A DNA stretch of 64,000 nt, taken from positions 10,992,537 through 11,056,536 of the forward strand of contig OZ038532.1 in the NCBI GenBank assembly GCA_964036665.1. Direction: 5' to 3'. Under the pieces are notes generated by a model. It was not told where the DNA came from. It saw only the letters and a program-made list of their open reading frames with translations, and did not search any database. Below, piece by piece: positions 2,720 through 62,300 of this stretch (its first letter is position 1; each line of letters starts with the position of its first letter). Origin of the DNA: Gordius sp. MW1 (taxonomy: Eukaryota > Nematomorpha > Gordioida > Gordea > Gordiidae). A program made the translations under genes and the position numbers.

Positions 2720-4850
2720 AAAATTTTATTCAATGGTAGTAACAAGAACAATCACAAGAGTCAAAAAAAACTCCGGGATTCTAACCCAAAAACTAGTTAA
2801 ATTGCTTAGCAATTAAGAGTAAACAACTTTTATTTATGTTTATTATAAAACATTGGTCAGCAGCCAGCGGACGGCCAAAAAGTCATAATAGCAATGGTAG
2901 GAACAGGGAACAATCATAATAGTCAAAAAAAAACGAAAAAAATAATTTCGATTCACATTTTGGCCAATGGTCATTTTTTCCAGCGGTCAGGAGCCAGCGG
3001 ACGGCCAAAAATTCTTATTATCAATGATAGTAACAAGAACAATCATAAGAGTCAAAAAAAACTCCGGGATTCTAACTAAAAAACTAGTTAAATTGCATAG
3101 CAATTAAAAGTAAACAACTTTTATTTATGTTTATTACATAATAGCTAATTTAAAAAATCTTATAAATAACACACCGAGGGAGATAGAGATGAGGGGTGGG
3201 CCACCTCTTATGCATTAATTTAAAAAATAACACAGCGAGGGAGATAGAGATGTGGGGTGGGGCACCTCTTTCTTATGCTAAAAATCGATAACCTTATATA
3301 CCCAATGCAAATAGATAGGGAGGATACAACGGACGGACGGACGGACGGACGCACACCAAAAAACGAGCCCATAAATTGCATAGCAATTAAAACCAATTAT
3401 GATGGAATAAACGTTAATAAATAATAGATTAACGTTTCAATAGTAGTTTTAATCCTTTCCTTTTTTCGATTTGAAGTTATAACAGTGGTGATAGCTAAAA
3501 ATAACACTTTTAATTCTATGCATAATTTTTAATTGCTATGCAATTTATGGGCTCGTTTTTTGGTGTCCGTCCGTCCGTCCGTTGTCCGTTACCCTCCCTA
3601 TCTATTTGCATTGGGTATATTAGGTTATCGCTTTCTTAAATTAATGCATGAGAAAGAGGTGCCCCACCCCTCATCTCTATCTCCCTCGCTGTGTTATTTT
3701 TTAAATTAATGCATAAGAGGTGGCCCACCCCTCATCTCTATCTCCCTCGCTTTCGGGCGGGGTCGGGTTTTAATTGCTACGTTAAATTAATGCATAAGTA
3801 TATTATATAATAAACATAAATAAAAGTTGTTTACTTTTTAATTGCTATGCAATTTAACTAGTTTTGGGGTTAGAATCCCGGAGTTTTTTTTGACTCTTAT
3901 GATTGTTCTTGTTACTATCATTGATAATAAGAATTTTTGGCCGTCCGCTGGCTGCTGACCAATGAAAAAAATGACCATTGGCCAAAATGTGAATCGAAAT
4001 TATTTTTTTCGTTTTTTTTTGACTATTATGATTGTTCCTGTTTCTACCATTGCTATTATGACTTTTTGGCCGTCCGCTGGCTGCTGACCAATGTTATATA
4101 ATAAACATAAATAAAAGTTGTTTACTTTTAAGTGCTATGCAATTTAACTAGTTTTTGGGTTAGAATCCCGGAGTTTTTTTGACTCTTATGATTGTTCTTG
4201 TTACTATCATTGATAATAAGACTTTTTGGCCGTCCGCTGGCTGCTGACCAATGAAAAAAATGACCATTGGTCAAAATGTGAATCCGAGTTTATTTTTTCG
4301 TTTTTTTGACTATTATGATTGTTCCTGTTACTACCATTGCTATTATGACTTTTTGGCCGGCTGCTGGCTCCTGACCGATGGAAAAAATGACCATTCCAAA
4401 ATGTGAATCGAAATTATTTTTTTCGTTTTTTTTTGACTATTATGATTGTTCCTGCTCCTACCATTGCTATTATGACTTTTTGGCCGTCCGCTGGCTGCTG
4501 ACCAATGGAATAAAATGACCATTGGCCAAAATGTGATTCGAAAACTTTTTTTTCGTTTTTTTTGACTATTATGAATTTATATCCACCTTTACCGTGTCCT
4601 GGCTGCTGACCAATGGAAAAAAATGACCATTGGCCAAAATGTGATTCGAAAGTTTTTTTTTCATTTTTTTTTACTCTTATGAATTTATATCTACTTTTAC
4701 CGTGTGCTGGCTGCTGACCAATAAAAAAAAATGACCATTGGCCAAAGTGAGCATCAAAATTTTTTATTCCGTTTTTTTGGCTATCATTGACTTATAGAGT
4801 ATCTGTTAGTACTGACCAATAAAGAAAAAATGACCATTGGCCAAATTTTT
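2720..4850. repeat. Large foldback repeat with imperfect tandem units in its arms
   Basis: The segment ending at 3390 (ACGGACGGACG..., then GAGCCCATAAATTGCATAGCAATTAAAA) is the reverse complement of the segment starting at 3527. The arms extend outward to about 2720 and at least 4200, and decaying units continue to about 4850. Within each arm a unit recurs that contains 'ctccgggattctaac' and 'ggccgtccgctggctgctgacc' in one or the other orientation. The 135-bp loop holds an LTR fragment (3391-3484). The motif AATTGCATAGCAATTA at the inner edges recurs near 5160, 23035, 23425 and 58545, so it is the end of a dispersed family. No protein is encoded. Confidence 0.75.
3391..3484 (+). repeat. LTR 3'-end fragment (same family as LTR at 13511-13944)
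   Basis: These 94 bases match 13851-13944, the last part of the Ty3 LTR, with about one visible difference, and end at the same AACA. The upstream 340 bases of the LTR are missing and are replaced by the inner edge of the foldback repeat. It could be the remnant 5' LTR of the element whose gag begins at 5702, or an unrelated solo-LTR scrap. Confidence 0.8.
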
Positions 4851-47231: not shown

Positions 47232-49327
47232 TTATAGCTATGAGCAAGCGAGAATCATCTCTGATTTAGCACCTACCCCTAAAGATGTAGCTCGTCGGCA
47301 GCTGAAGAAACACAAGTGGCTACTTCAATGTCGGCTGATGCCACCAATACAGTATTATTTTCTTCCATGCTTATCTATCCCAGGAAGATATAGCAATGTT
47401 AGCCCACATTGCTACTGGACTACCCGGTATATGGAGCCAAGAAACTTACCTAACTGATTTTCATTAATATACTTTACCATCAACCTCAATAGCCATCAAA
47501 CTTCGCGCTCTCCAGAAGTGGCCAGATATTTAGTAAGATACGATCTTGGCCTCAAAGTGGCTATCCAATGAAATGAACATGACATGCTATTAAGTTTACG
47601 ATTTTTATGATAGCAATTATCGATTTGACTGGCGTTATAAGTTAAATCAGGCTCCATCGACCTATCAACTGAGGGACATGGAAAAGGATGACGCTTCCAT
47701 GGCTCAAGATTATGTTGAACAAATCGGATTAATCGTTAGCCCTTATTATGTATATTAAATTACACACACAAGGCAAATGAGTTTGATTTAAAAAAATAGT
47801 ACGCTAAAAATTTTATTTTCACAGAAAACTTAATCTTCTATTTGACACCCTTTCAGGACTAATTGGTTAAAAAACAAGTTAAACTTTAATTGCTTACTAA
47901 GTTTAAGCTTGTTGCGCGGTAATAAAATATAATGCTTAAAAGTGAGAAATAAGTGTTTTGAAAAGTAAAACTTAGATTCCATAATTTATAAATTTATTAT
48001 TCTTAAAAATAATATTTGACTAAATTAAAAATTTTACTTTAGGGTGAAGTAGAGCTATAATAAATTTTTTTAACGATTTAATAATAAAATTTCTTTTGGA
48101 AAATAATATAAATAAGCGTACGAATTTAGTCAAAGATTTAATTAAAATAAATTAAATTCATTGCTATTATTACAACACTACACTAACAAGAGATATATTA
48201 TTAAGTTCTCAGTTTAATGTAGGGAAATATTTGAGCAATTGGTACCAATCCCTTGCCTCTACTTTGATGTGACAAAACCAAATTATTTTTGAAGAAAGTT
48301 TTAAAAGTGAGCTTCTTATATAAACTTGCTTTAACTATTTTCGAAGATTATTGTGTTTTACTTTACAACTTTACCATCCTTAAATAACAATTAGTGTTTT
48401 GATCTCGTCTCGGTCTCGAAAGTAAAATCTCGTCTCGGGTACCATTATGAGAATCTCGATCTCGTCTCAGGTTAAAAAATCTCGGTCTCGCCTCGACGAG
48501 AATTCTCGACATGTCTCCACTTTTGAAATTTTTTTATACTGTATAAATTTTTACCCTTTTATAATACAAATACAAATTTAAAAAATTAAAATGGCGAACC
48601 ATTTTTCATTCAATATCTTTATGATCATGTTATTTTGTTGCCTGTGCACTACTTTACTAGCTGTTTTCATGTTTATACTTTATATAGAATTAAATAATAA
48701 TAAAAACATGTTAATTATGTTTGCCCCCAACAATAAAATGTATAAAGTTATTTGCTAATTAATAAAAATACAGTTTCTATATGAAAGGGTCATTTTGGCG
48801 CCGAATTAATAAAATACCATTTTAAACAATTTATGACCATTTCAAGATAGCCGCCCTACTTTCTCTTTTATTTAATTTGATTACTAGGTAGTATAAAACA
48901 TTTGTCTTAAATTTGAAACCGTTTGAGAGCGTTCAACAGTAATTATGCCATTTTGGCCATTCTGAAATGACCAATCGATAAAAAAAATTTTAAATTTTTT
49001 CCAAGGAAGTTCTTATTTATTATTACAACATGATTTTATGATTTGGGGGCCAATAACTTATAAATTTTATGAAATATAGCGTTACGAACCGATTTTTAAA
49101 AGGTCGAACCTTTGAGCGCCCACAACTCAAACTGTAGTGGCCCAAATAAGCTAAAATTTTCGGAAATTAATACTTTTATTAGTTTTAACATTTCCATTAA
49201 ATTTTTATAAAAATCTGAGGGGGTCGGCCGAAAACGTGGCGATTTGACATGGGATGTTCACATATGAAATGAAACGCAACTTAGCATGTTGGAAGACAAA
49301 AGGATCTTCCCAACACGCTCCATAAAT
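47232..49327. other. Region with weak open stretches and CTCG-rich repeat end
   Basis: Near 47640-47757 the + strand reads LNQAPSTYQLRDMEKDDASM and on to a stop; it might be an eroded retroelement gag but is not identified. 48400-48520 is a cluster of TCTCGTCTCG words, inverted relative to that at 36718. No gene is supported. Confidence 0.4.
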
Positions 49328-52020
49328 CTAGGCGATATCTTCCAGCCGCAAAAAAGCGAACCCCGAAACTCGTCGGATCAATTTCCTTATCTGCGGATCA
49401 CATATATAATCTCTTCGAAAATCGAGTTTGTCCGCCCGCCTCAACATGGCCCTCGAAAAGTGGAAGAGACAACCTTAAAAATGAAATTAAAAATGTTTAA
49501 AAAATATTACCTTTGACCACCGCGTTATTAAAACTTTCATGAATTGCACTCTTTGCAGAGCGCTTAAAATCTATCTGGTATGTAGGGTTTAATTTTAAAT
49601 TAAGTTCTCCACATATATCCTTCAATTTTGAGAACACCTTGCAGTAAGTCTCCTTCGTTCTGCTAAGCATAAACTATAGGGATCATGTGATCCTTATAGT
49701 ATGCATGGATTTTATATAGCTAAAAACATAATTATTTTGGAATTCAATTTATCATTTACTTGATAAAATAAAATGGGGCACACTTTAAATGTCCTATCCA
49801 TATACATGAATTCAACCTGACACAAAACCTTTAACAGGGAAGGCGTCCCAAATAAGATCAGGTCGTTATTTTCGTTATAAAGAAGAAACCGTTCGTTCTT
49901 TGGGGTTATTGCTTGGACGTCATAACGATTTGACTTCTGGTAGGGGAACGGGTTGTCTATCTGCAATAACCCTCTTCATCGTATTTTTAACTGACATCCA
50001 GGCAGGAATAGCCATTGGAAAGTCACTTAGATCCACGACTTCCTCTAGACGAGAGCTTAATACCTGATGATATAACTTATTAAGTTTAATGCAAGGATTT
50101 GCAACAACTGATTCTTTTAAGGCATTTATGGTTCTTAAATATTCATAATCCTCCCTTGGAGGATCATGATTGTGCTGCTGTTTAACAGCCACGGCATCAT
50201 TAATCTCCACAGCTGTTCCTGGGCACGCCTTATTCCGACACTTATAATAGGTCTTGTAGGGAGTTTTTCTACTAACATTGTACAAATAAGAGGAATGATA
50301 CATGATTTTTCCTCCCTTTTTGGATGCAATATATATGGGGTTTTGCTCTAAAATATAATTATAAATGTTTATAAAAATATGTACCTCTACAGCTCGGCTC
50401 TATCTGATTGGTGAATGCATCTTGCATTGTTGCACCATCTAAAATTAAAATTGTTAGATAAATTTAATGCTATTTATTGTAATCTCTTCCTACTTAAAGT
50501 GAGGTTTTTTGGGTCTCCAGGTTGAGAAGCCTCTGGACTTTGTATTGACTGAGCCTGAGGCACTGAGACAGCTAAAAATTTATAAACAAAAAAAAATTAC
50601 AAATTATATACTTAATTGCATGTGGTGTCTAACTATAGAACCACCAGACACCATTGGTGCAGCCCTTTGACTTTGTGTTGACTGAGCCTGATGCACTGAG
50701 AGTAAGGACTGAGGCCGAGGCACAGAGATTACAGCTAAAAATTTAGAAACAAAAAAAGTTAAAAATTATAAACTTGATTGCATGTGGTGTCTAGCCATAG
50801 AACCACCAGACACTACAATTGGTGTAGTCCTTTGACTTTGAATTAAATGAGCCTGAGGCATTGACTGAGGGCGAGGCACTGAAATTACAGCTAAAAATTT
50901 AGAAACAAAAAAAGTTAAAAATTATATACTTGATTTCATGTGGTGTCTAGCTATAGAACCACCAGACACTACAAATGGTGTAGTCCTCTGAATTGACTGA
51001 GCCTGAGGCACTGAGAATAATGACTGAGGCCGAGGCACTGAGATTATAGCTAAAAATTTAGAAAAAAAAGTTAAAAATTATATACTTGATTGCATGTGGT
51101 ATCTAGCTATAGAACCACCAGACACTACAAATGGTGTAGTCCTTTGACTTTGTATTGACTGAGCCTGAGGCACTGAGACAGCTAAAAATTTATAAACAAA
51201 AAAATGCAAATTATATACTTGATTGCATGTGGTGTCTAACTATAGAACCACCAGACACCATTAGTGCAGCCCTTTGACTTTGTGTTGACTGAGCCTGATG
51301 CACTGAGAGTAAGGACTGAGGCCGAGGCTCAGAGATTACAGCTAAAAATTTAGAAACAAAAAAGTTAAAAATTATAAACTTGATTGCATGTGGTGTCTAG
51401 CTATAGAACCACCAGACACTACAAATGGTTGACTTTGAATTGACTGAGCCTGAGGCATTGAGAGTAATGACTGAGGCCGAGGCACTGAGATTACAGCTAA
51501 AAATTTAGAAACATAAAAAGTTAAAAATTATATACTTGATTTCATGTGGTGTCTAGCTATAGAACCACCAGACACTACAAATGGTGTAGTCCTTTGAATT
51601 GACTGAGCCTGAGGCACTGAGAGTAATGACTGAGGCCGAGGCACTAAGATTATAGCTAAAAATTTAGAAACAAAAAAAGTTAAAAATTATATACTTGATT
51701 GCATGTGGTATCTAGCTATAGATCCACCAGACACTACAAATGGTGTAGTCCTTTGACTTTGTATTGACTGAACCTGAGGCACTAAGATAGCTAAAAATTT
51801 AAAAGCAAAAAAATTTAAAAATTATATACTTGATTGCATGTGGTGTCTAACTATAGAACCACCAGACACCACAAATGGTGCAGCCCTTTGACTTTGTATT
51901 GACTGAGCCTGAGGCACTGGGATTACAGCTAAAAATTAGAAATAAAAAATTTAAAAATTATATACTTTGAGAATAAATTAATTTATGAATAATAATAAAC
52001 TTACAGGATATATGTTGCAT
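49328..52020 (-). CDS. FLYWCH-MULE transposase gene with ten tandem homologous exons
   Basis: Minus-strand exons: 52005-52020 (ATG), 51830-51928, 51695-51790, 51536-51655, 51380-51496, 51219-51341, 51086-51181, 50930-51049, 50774-50890, 50612-50734, 50494-50571, 50385-50438, 49760-50347, 49511-49719 and 49328-49473. Exons 2-11 are homologous (VISVPRPQSLLSVPQAQSIQ ... GGSIARHHMQS). Each is 78-123 bp, a multiple of three, and in phase 1. Exon 13 has a FLYWCH zinc finger (YYKCRNKACPG, QQHNHD) and MULE transposase segments (FLLYNENNDLILFGT, YMDRTFKVCPILFYQ). Exons 14-15 continue with QLYKIHAYYKDHMIPIVYA and CLFHFSRAMLRRADKLDF. Apparent one- or two-base frameshifts near 49920 and 49670 and a stop at 49328 suggest the transposase core is inactive. 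The exon array itself is fully open. Introns are 36-76 bp. Confidence 0.7.
50494..51928 (-). repeat. Tandem exon array organised as a higher-order repeat
   Basis: CATGTGGT(G/A)TCTA anchors lie at 50619, 50781, 50937, 51093, 51226, 51387, 51543, 51702 and 51837. The spacings 162, 156, 156, 133 / 161, 156, 159, 135 form a four-unit pattern repeated about every 610 bp. A diagnostic TCTAAC variant occurs only at 50619, 51226 and 51837, confirming the larger period. Confidence 0.88.
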
Positions 52021-59370: not shown

Positions 59371-62300
59371 TTAAGATGGATTGTGTTTATTTTTGATTCT
59401 TTTTTTCGCACCTCCTCTGGTAAGGTCCAAAGGTGCCAGACAAGATGTGACACTGGATATGGTTGCCGAACTTATTGTGTCTATACATTCAATATTCTGA
59501 TCTTTTTCATCGTTCAATAGGTTAATGTCATTGATAAAAGACTTTTTTAAATTCATAATCTCCGTTTCCCCATCTTTACCTTCATGAAAAATGCCTAAAG
59601 CTTGGCCCAATTCAAATATAGCTGAGGTAGATGTGGGCGTCGTCGGGCTTAGCATATCACTGAGCCCATGCCCAAAAAATATACTTGTTTGATCATCGCC
59701 ATTAGTCATGATGTTAACACCGTTCTCATCTTCATGTTTAACGTTTCTATCATTATCTTGTCTAATTGAGTTTTCAACTTTCTGATCGACATTTAAAGGC
59801 ATTTTAATGTGGCAATCAGGTTTCCATAGTAACCCGGCATGTTCTTGAATTAAATCCGTAACGCATTGCGTTCTCTTATCCAACTCCAACCGTTTCAACT
59901 CGTGAGCTTTAATTCGTTTCCTGAGAGCTAAACATATTATATTTACAAACAAACTTGTTATATTTACAAAACAGTAAACTAATCCATTTTTCATCAATTG
60001 CAAGGGCGTAGCCAGCATTGGAATTAGAGGGGGCAATAATGATTTAGGGAGGGGTAAAATTATCATTTTTTGAAATTTTAGCTATAATTTTAATAAATTT
60101 TTGTTTTAGAAAGGGGCAGTCGCCCCTCCCTGCCCCCTTTGGCTACGCCCATCAATATGTAAATGTGACTTTATACAAATCCGAACTAAAATTCAAAAGC
60201 GACTCAAGAGAATGATGAGGATAATTTATTAATGACTTTTATAAACATTAATAGATTTAATTATAATAATTAAAAAAAAATGCGCGCTCCTAAGCAATTT
60301 AAAGTTGCTAAAAATTAAAGGGATTTTACCTATTAATTCTCGTCTATTTTTTTCTCGCTCGGCAATCAAGCAATTTTGGTGATGCGTTAGCTTCTCTTTC
60401 AACTTGGGTATTAATCCCAATTCCATCACGATGAAGGACAAATGCTTGGAATCTTTTAAAAGCAATTTAAATTAAATACATACACATTTAAAGTTGTTAC
60501 ATTCAATCATTTGTGCAAATTCTTGAGAATGTTGGGGAGGTAGGGTATCTTTAGATATCGCCTTTTGAATATCGTCCAGAATGGCTTTAATTTCTTGAAT
60601 AAAGTCTGGGAGCAAGTCAAGGTTTCCCATTTTTTTCCAAAAGCAAAGAGTCTCTATTAAAATTTTTAATTGAAGTTAATAAGTTTATAGTTTAAAAAAG
60701 TAAGCGCATAAACAAAACTTTTCTCTGGGCGACAGATATCGAGTCCTATATTAAGCTTTTTTTTACTTCTGACAAAAAAGGTGGCTCTAAATTTTAGATA
60801 ATTGTACCCTGTCCTCGTTAATTAATCTAACGATTCATTTATGTGCATTAGTCATTTAACATAAAGGTATATGTATTATTAAAATTAAAAAATATCTTAA
60901 ATTCAATGTAGGGGAGACCGGGGCTATCGTGTCCATAAAATTTCAAAGAGGCCTGGACAAAACATATTAACCTATTTTCATATACTTTTTTCAGAAAAAT
61001 GTTCTTGTCAGCAGTGTTTATAAAGGGGAAAAAAATTATAGCAACACAGATAATAGATTGTTAGTAATAAGGGTTCAAAAAAAAGACAACTTGTATAAAT
61101 TCGAAAAATGCCCGGGGCTATTCTTATCCCTAAGCGAGGCTATATTATCCTTTGTATTATTTTGTATTTAAACTTAATAAACCTTTGATTAAAAGAAATT
61201 TAACTCCTAAATTAACAAAATTATGACCACACACATTGTTTAAAATGCTTTTTCTATTGTTTACAATTTTGACATATAAAAAAATATCATTATTGCAATA
61301 AGATCCATGTGCTTTTGTAATGTTTTGTATTTAAACTTAATAAACCTTTGATTGAAAGATATTAAACTCCTAAATTAAAAAAATTATGACCACACACATT
61401 GGTAAAAATGCTTTTTCTATTGTTTACAATTTTGACATATAAAAAATATCTTTATTGCAACAAGTTCATGTGCTTTTGTAATGTTTTGTATTTAAACTTA
61501 ATAAACCTTTGATTGAAAGATATTAAACTACTAAAATAACAAAATTATAACCAACACATATTGTTTAAAATATTTTATTGTTTACAATTGTGACATATAA
61601 AAAATATCTTTATTGCAACAAGTTCATGTGCTTTTGTAATGTTTTGTATTTAAACTTAATAAACCTTTGATTGAAAGATATTAAACTACTAAAATAACAA
61701 AATTATAACCAACACATATTGTTTAAAATATTTTATTGTTTACAATTGTGTGTTGTAGATGTCACAAGGCAAATAGCTATATGAAGCTAATAAAGATGAA
61801 TAATTATCAAAAAAACATGTGATATTCTGTTCATTAAAACTAGTGGCCCTCAAAATGCTGGTTGGTTCTGGGGTCCTTAATGATATTTAAGGGTTTCTTT
61901 TAATAAAAGAGGTGAACCAATCAGCACCTGCTGATTCATATTCAGCCCATGAATTAGGCATTGATAAATTAAATTGTACTGCCATTTGATAAGCCAAATA
62001 CCTAACCTTAACAAAATTGAGCATAAAAAATTGATATAATACTTGTTTGGGGGTCAAGCCTGAATAAAGCTTTGCCCCCTTTATAAGGTATGATGCTAAT
62101 TTTTCCTCCTGCTCCTTATCAAATATCACTCTTGTCTTACGTTCCTTAACAAAAGATTCTCCCTTTTTGAATTTATAGTGATATTTTTTTAAAGTTGAAT
62201 AGCTAAAGTTTGTTTGTTTAGCTATATGTTTTAAGCTAATCTTTTGTTTCATAGCTTTATAGATTTCACTTTTGATGTTATTATCTTGAACAAAATTGGT

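Follow-up and report, generated by a model that had tools for sequence, protein, structure and literature searches.

The minus strand of the window, a 64,000-nucleotide stretch of the nematomorph Gordius sp. MW1, carries a predicted gene that opens with a tandem row of homologous phase-1 exons and continues into a FLYWCH finger. We read it, with a probability of about three in four, as an old and probably dead FLYWCH-type Mutator-like (Phantom-like) transposon, in which a phase-1 exon array stands before the FLYWCH domain and the length and sequence of the encoded arm are tolerated. The evidence consists of a regular exon-intron grammar, a predicted spliced frame that stays open, the recurrence of such arrays in sister lineages and exon numbers that differ between near-identical copies. 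The genome under study comprises 211.8 Mb in 12 contigs.

A scan of the window located ten TTTTTAG acceptors on the minus strand, from 51928 to 50571, one before every exon of the array as the initial annotation had it. The resulting model has 13 exons between 52020 and 49920, namely a putative first exon, nine homologous phase-1 exons, a tenth that is half a unit, a linker and the FLYWCH exon, and splices into a single open frame of 528 codons. GT-AG ends are present at 12 of 12 introns; the nine between the ten array exons measure 36, 37, 38, 39 or 40 nt, in agreement with the 36-40 bp first proposed, and the remaining three measure 76, 55 and 37 nt. The putative first exon (52005..52020, on the minus strand like all features of this gene) has 16 nt and a candidate ATG, ends in phase 1 at a GTAAGT donor and was placed by in-frame splicing. 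The acceptor scan, the frame and the splice model give unit exons 1 to 5 at 51830..51928 (99 nt), 51695..51790 (96 nt), 51536..51655 (120 nt), 51380..51496 (117 nt) and 51219..51341 (123 nt). Exons 6 to 9, placed by their acceptors, by comparison of the units and by the splice model, follow at 51086..51181 (96 nt), 50930..51049 (120 nt), 50774..50890 (117 nt) and 50612..50734 (123 nt). The lengths vary in steps of three, and 96, 120, 117 and 123 nt each occur twice; exons 2 and 6 differ at 4 sites, exons 3 and 7 at 3 and exons 5 and 9 at 3, while exons 4 and 8 are alike in length only, with different indels and 33 ungapped differences. By alignment and splice model the tenth exon (50494..50571, 78 nt) starts like a unit and is otherwise unique. 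The claim of ten homologous exons holds for nine, the tenth being a hybrid. The linker exon (50385..50438, 54 nt) comes from the splice model and has a comparable short exon before FLYWCH in relatives read by eye; both it and the ATG exon at 52020-52005 were missing from the exon set originally proposed. The FLYWCH exon (49920..50347) ends with a stop at 49920 and matches PF04500 with E 2.2e-7 and 31.4 bits against a cut-off of 23.6; in a genome-wide search with the same profile it scored 33.3 bits.

In-frame splicing into both a FLYWCH finger and a MULE transposase had been proposed, and only the first of these stands. Beyond the stop at 49920 the transposase continues in a shifted frame (49712..49975, the start of the MULE part), the tblastn match changing frame near 49922. 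A MULE domain remnant at 49497..49673 lies under the Pfam cut-off (E 0.069, 14 bits against 27.6), and a later transposase remnant at 49328..49474 was recognised by DNA matches to the related loci L039-L043. Against each of these five loci, even the longest-reaching DNA match goes no farther than 49260-49281 of the window, so that the C-terminal part is missing. The DDE triad is incomplete, since homology ends short of the part of the relatives' sequence (judged on L043) that carries the third residue, taken to be catalytic after the Muta1 triad (PMC5225508). With the frame shift before the MULE part, the sub-threshold MULE score and this loss of homology, the window copy most likely no longer works as a transposase. 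The array and the FLYWCH domain could still be encoded.

All nine complete unit exons are divisible by three and none has a stop in the phase-1 frame, as the initial annotation had stated, and each of the two other frames has stops in 9/9. In the window model retention of any single intron of the 12 leads to an early stop, and none arises when the nine exons are skipped in any of their 512 combinations. The units give dN 0.093 and dS 0.102, a ratio of 0.91 that is near neutral; this comparison of exon copies had been proposed together with a search for further genomic copies, which found at least one second array, on contig C8. The predicted N-terminus is 46% Ser/Pro/Gln/Thr over 359 residues. 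The array would accordingly add a repetitive, probably unstructured or flexible Ser/Pro/Gln/Thr-rich arm before the DNA-binding FLYWCH domain. The proposed Ser/Pro/Gln-rich character is borne out by this composition; the length variability proposed with it is observed in a sister family described below, whose copies differ in exon number.

The array had been taken for a single odd gene, a view that we revise: in the same genome, arrays stand at the corresponding place in five other FLYWCH-MULE lineages. Relatives were sought with the transposase part and with the PF10551 and PF04500 profiles, and many were found among the matches listed. We read six array-bearing lineages, the window, L041, L042, the L043 family, the L046 family and L047. 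Phase and position are common to all six, and the array immediately precedes FLYWCH in the lineages read at length. Exon lengths across arrays are 69-123 nt and the repeat units of exon plus intron about 110-164 bp. The L043 and L045 arrays have exons of 69, 96 or 123 nt and introns mostly of 41 nt; L041 has 12 complete exons of 105 nt with introns of 39 nt; L046 has exons of 81 nt with introns of 34 or 35 nt; and L047 has two arrays, with exons of 81 and 99 nt. The array of L042 amounts to about two units only, with one complete exon of 78 nt and introns of 70 and 80 nt. In L041 the 39-nt introns are open in frame too and an 893-codon ORF spans exons and introns, so the frame there is no proof of splicing. 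Some arrays contain broken units: in the minus array of L045 2/14 exons have lengths not divisible by three and 3/14 have stops, in its plus array the figures are 1/19 and 1/19, and L033, of the L043 family, has a stop in 1/8. A chance estimate of (1/3)^13 for the exon lengths is set aside, as it takes the size classes for independent and omits the broken L045 exons. Apparent exons of 206 and 233 nt in the L043 family are two exons with the intron between them, its donor pattern having been missed, and the flagged exons in L026 and L029 are likewise missed introns.

The unit peptides of these arrays are mostly not recognisably alike. For 19/21 pairs of array types the observed match was reached by 19 to 495 of 500 shuffles, and related peptides were found in two pairs only, L046 with the first array of L047 (0/500 shuffles as good) and the window with L041 (1/500). 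The FLYWCH-to-MULE segments of the compared lineages are 63-68% identical (the L047 row is partial). Within the L043 family, which has at least 24 places in the genome and copies mostly about 95% identical to L043, the 69-, 96- and 123-nt exons come in different orders, and parsing of the three longest arrays gave 16, 15 and 20 introns. A second, different repeat stands upstream of the main array in L046 (6362-6564, 106 bp x 1.9) and L047 (1903-2709, 136 bp x 5.9), and these look as if older exon arrays had been succeeded by newer ones.

Arrays of this kind were not seen in the distant outgroup L048, where the one repeat reported by TRF is a weak one of 47 bp, 3.1 copies long, between the two genes, in the fragments L039 and L040, or in L049, which gave no hit with the L043 FLYWCH segment and whose 129-bp repeat resembles a dispersed repeat in the window. 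A scan of about 1.5 kb on each side of seven other MULE loci (L001-L003 and L005-L008) found repeats of 42-99 bp in L003, L007 and L008. Protein relatives elsewhere were limited to two distant proteins, and a search of viral contigs confirmed none.

The PF04500 search also returned many divergent pairs of FLYWCH-MULE genes, minus then plus and 4-18 kb apart. They include L045 (C7:6435400-6442900), C3:21126248/21132900, C8:22139338/22144016, C2:6414928/6420299, C4:19169437/19174141, C3:21984980/21989360, C1:18493951/18511617 and C8:35091578/35102435. At L045 the two genes form 95% identical arms with arrays in both, as in a Foldback-like element. A repeat common to L043-family copies (L043:1149-2429) extends past the 3' end of the transposase toward a reverse-transcriptase gene (RVT_1, E 8.9e-13), either as a nested insertion or as a composite element. 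On the same strand as the array gene and beyond the window end, about 16.5 kb upstream of its ATG, lies a further FLYWCH domain (L044, C6:11061093-11061281, E 3.2e-8) in a 168-codon frame; TRF found no tandem repeat in 1.6 kb upstream of it. Elsewhere in the window there are a 60-bp tandem repeat at 1603-2056 (7.6 copies, 96% matches), both strands of which are open for more than 160 codons, an AT-rich 158-bp tandem array at 61151-61750 (3.7 copies, 93% matches) tied to no gene examined, and an ABC-transporter-like exon, for which a protein search yielded three distant hits.

Exon number differs between near-identical copies in the L046 family, which occupies at least 11 places with an identical FLYWCH score in the genome profile search. 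Counted two ways, by intron and by exon, in one assembly, ten of these places have 43, 34, 15, 14, 9, 8, 8, 6, 4 and 4 unit exons; at the eleventh, L064, other sequence cuts the family off before the array. The proposal that exon number could change without cost to the frame is thus supported both by this range, 4 to 43, and by the 512/512 open skipping subsets of the window. The unit exons are 81 nt long in 145/145 cases, and those lying between two parsed introns are open in 135/135; among the latter 6 variable sites, each of which changes the protein, combine into 14 haplotypes. On the transposase side the copies on C1 and C5 are identical at 3,361/3,361 bases. The C1 copy has 5,371 bp and a 9-bp target duplication, the C5 copy 5,486 bp and an 8-bp target duplication, and the sequence identity together with these duplications suggests that the family was recently mobile. 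L046 and L050, a divergent pair on C8, agree in exon order, apart from a variant of a single base and nine exons in one block. Upstream of the L046-family array no in-frame ATG occurs before the first stop of the genomic frame is reached, so the start codon of this family is putative.

Each unit pairs one exon with one tiny intron, the exon having a length divisible by three and equal phase at both ends. Unequal exchange or slippage would then shift whole units, lengthening or shortening the protein with the frame intact, and would be harmless to the frame because of the symmetric phase and the divisible length. New unit types would arise and displace old ones. Most likely the length and sequence of the arm are tolerated, not needed, which would let arrays expand and contract freely while they remain open. 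Tandem symmetric exon units of varying number are also familiar from the kringle IV repeats of apolipoprotein(a); there they encode an extracellular domain that is structured, and the gene belongs to the host and not to a mobile element as here.

Whether the window array is spliced can be approached through its second copy. A DNA search of the genome with the array, which passes over very common words and gives a lower bound on matches, returned one other, at C8:31749497-31750836. This array has 13 complete units and one partial unit, exon abutting exon and without the 36-40 nt introns; at its commonest junction ...CAATCAA is directly followed by CTGTAATC.... Its units resemble window exon 1, which is 94% identical to one of them across exactly 99 nt. 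The C8 array has decayed: 7/13 units have a length not divisible by three and 11/13 contain stops, against 0/9 and 0/9 in the window (Fisher 0.017 and 0.0002). No other gene part was found beside it in the flanks examined, and no poly(A) tail was seen in the flank read. It adjoins a retroelement-like repeat with 26 matches, and the homology of two compared relatives ends at L038:3445. The simplest reading is that the C8 array is a copy of a spliced RNA, afterwards decayed and multiplied in place, because sister lineages have phase-1 introns at the corresponding place. A template switch during reverse transcription would fit such an origin beside the repeat, which may explain how this one copy arose and nothing further. 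From this single intronless genomic copy we infer that the window array is spliced, and it is presumably translated. The reverse order of events, with the intronless C8 array ancestral and introns gained once in a unit and multiplied with it, seems to us quite unlikely. The likeness of the C8 units to exon 1 and the lack of a flanking gene part on C8 would agree with it, but phase-1 introns, mostly after TCAA or CCAA, are also present in the sister lineages, which makes loss on C8 simpler, and the C8 array abuts the retroelement-like repeat.

The contrast between the intact window exons and the decayed C8 units is also what led us to reject a plain, non-coding satellite whose frames are open by chance. 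Tandem repeats are common in the window (35 TRF rows), but a satellite would have to account for the agreement of six lineages in phase and position and for the uniformly open exons of the L046 family, and we regard it as extremely unlikely. If instead the repeats acted as promoter elements or binding sites, in the manner of the subterminal repeats known from other Mutator-like and Foldback elements, the frame would be secondary. The excerpts available of three papers (PMC3169594, PMC5225508, PMC6446971) do describe tandem repeats in Phantom-like elements, within the ends or close to them, but in those of PMC3169594 and PMC5225508 they are 9-15 bp long and terminal or subterminal, and the units here are far longer and inside the gene. 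Unit sequences mostly differ between lineages, and binding needs no frame keeping, so a role at the DNA level appears very unlikely. Selection for variety deserves more weight, while still being unlikely in our view: host defence or self-regulation would act on the N-terminal arm, and change in exon number and sequence would be favoured. Along the same lines, it is conceivable, if doubtful, that the element has made the exon number and sequence of its own transposase fast-changing, with arrays being born, reaching more than 40 copies, being reshuffled and replaced, and with protein variety selected, for example in escaping or tuning host control.

Young arrays contain 27 replacement, 3 synonymous and 1 stop variants, against about 27% synonymous expected (binomial P(syn<=3) 0.018). 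This count leaves out L024, L027 and L030, which are the same loci as the L043 and L045 arms, and for the L043 family it covers neither the 96-nt exons nor the central 54 nt of those of 123 nt, where there is one further stop. Pure neutrality does not predict the replacement excess, and for this reason selection for variety keeps some probability. The protein-changing sites of the L046 family, combined into its 14 exon haplotypes, point the same way, as does the failure of most unit peptides to match better than shuffles beside FLYWCH-to-MULE segments that remain clearly alike. The sites are, however, few and non-independent, as units exchange sequence, the calculation ignores mutation bias, and the older window array is near neutral. 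An apparent stronger conservation of introns than of exons in young arrays was dropped, as it concerned too few sites and was not seen in the L043 family. Over 21 lineage pairs the FLYWCH segment has pS 0.54-0.88 and pN 0.16-0.47, with dN/dS 0.11-0.46 in 5/21 pairs and dS saturated in the other 16, the highest pair including the stop-bearing copy L042b. On these comparisons lineages keep the FLYWCH segment under constraint while the arrays turn over. We continue to favour an arm that is tolerated.

FLYWCH-MULE transposases make up the Phantom group of Mutator-like elements (Marquez and Pritham 2010, as cited in the available part of PMC3169594), in which FLYWCH is followed by MULE, as here. 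The FLYWCH finger scores above its cut-off in L043 (27.8 bits) as in the window, and the MULE domain, under its cut-off in the window, is over it in L043 (34.4) and the L046 family (30.7). The two L046-family target duplications, of 9 and 8 bp, fall within the Phantom-like size of 8-10 bp. In one L046-family element the 60 terminal bases share only a weak stretch and no clear terminal inverted repeat was seen; some Phantom members are described without such repeats in the excerpt of PMC6446971. A PHD finger, the mark of Rehavkus, gave no match at E <= 0.1 in nine pieces scanned, among them three of the window and three of the L043 transposase.

In the excerpts available, Phantom-type elements are described with 2 to 7 exons (PMC3169594, PMC5225508, PMC6446971): Muta1 encodes its transposase of 504 residues in two exons (PMC5225508) and Tm1-A has seven predicted exons (PMC3169594), and those excerpts describe no exon array in either. 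PMC4158355 deals with CACTA families whose exon numbers differ through intron loss. Rehavkus and aphid Phantom elements are Mutator-related and contain a tandem repeat, as here, but as excerpted in PMC6446971 that minisatellite follows the transposase ORF or stands ahead of the 3' terminal repeat, whereas the exons here are at the gene start, and Rehavkus has a PHD finger. The Tm1 Mutator/Foldback elements of root-knot nematodes are also FLYWCH-MULE and vary in repeat number between copies and ends, with repeats of about 14 bp inside the terminal repeats, unlike the in-gene exon units here (PMC3169594, in part). Schistosome micro-exon genes, too, have numerous symmetric exons whose skipping leaves the frame intact (excerpts of PMC4350168 and PMC8293314). 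There the exons are mainly of at most 36 bp and the products host-interface proteins, whereas the exons here, at 69-123 nt, are above that size and are tandem copies in a transposase. Among the matches listed in the open-access literature, judged by titles and abstract openings, there was no report of tandem exon arrays in a transposase gene. We read the locus as a Phantom-like MULE variant, new in its freely changing exon number.

The architecture is one in which exon number can change at no cost to the reading frame, as seen between copies otherwise identical over kilobases. With many near-identical copies in one genome, it becomes testable how exons are gained and lost, how small a usable intron can be (33-41 nt in most arrays) and what a repetitive arm does to a transposase. 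It is also a caution for repeat annotation, as an annotated 'satellite' may be a row of coding exons.
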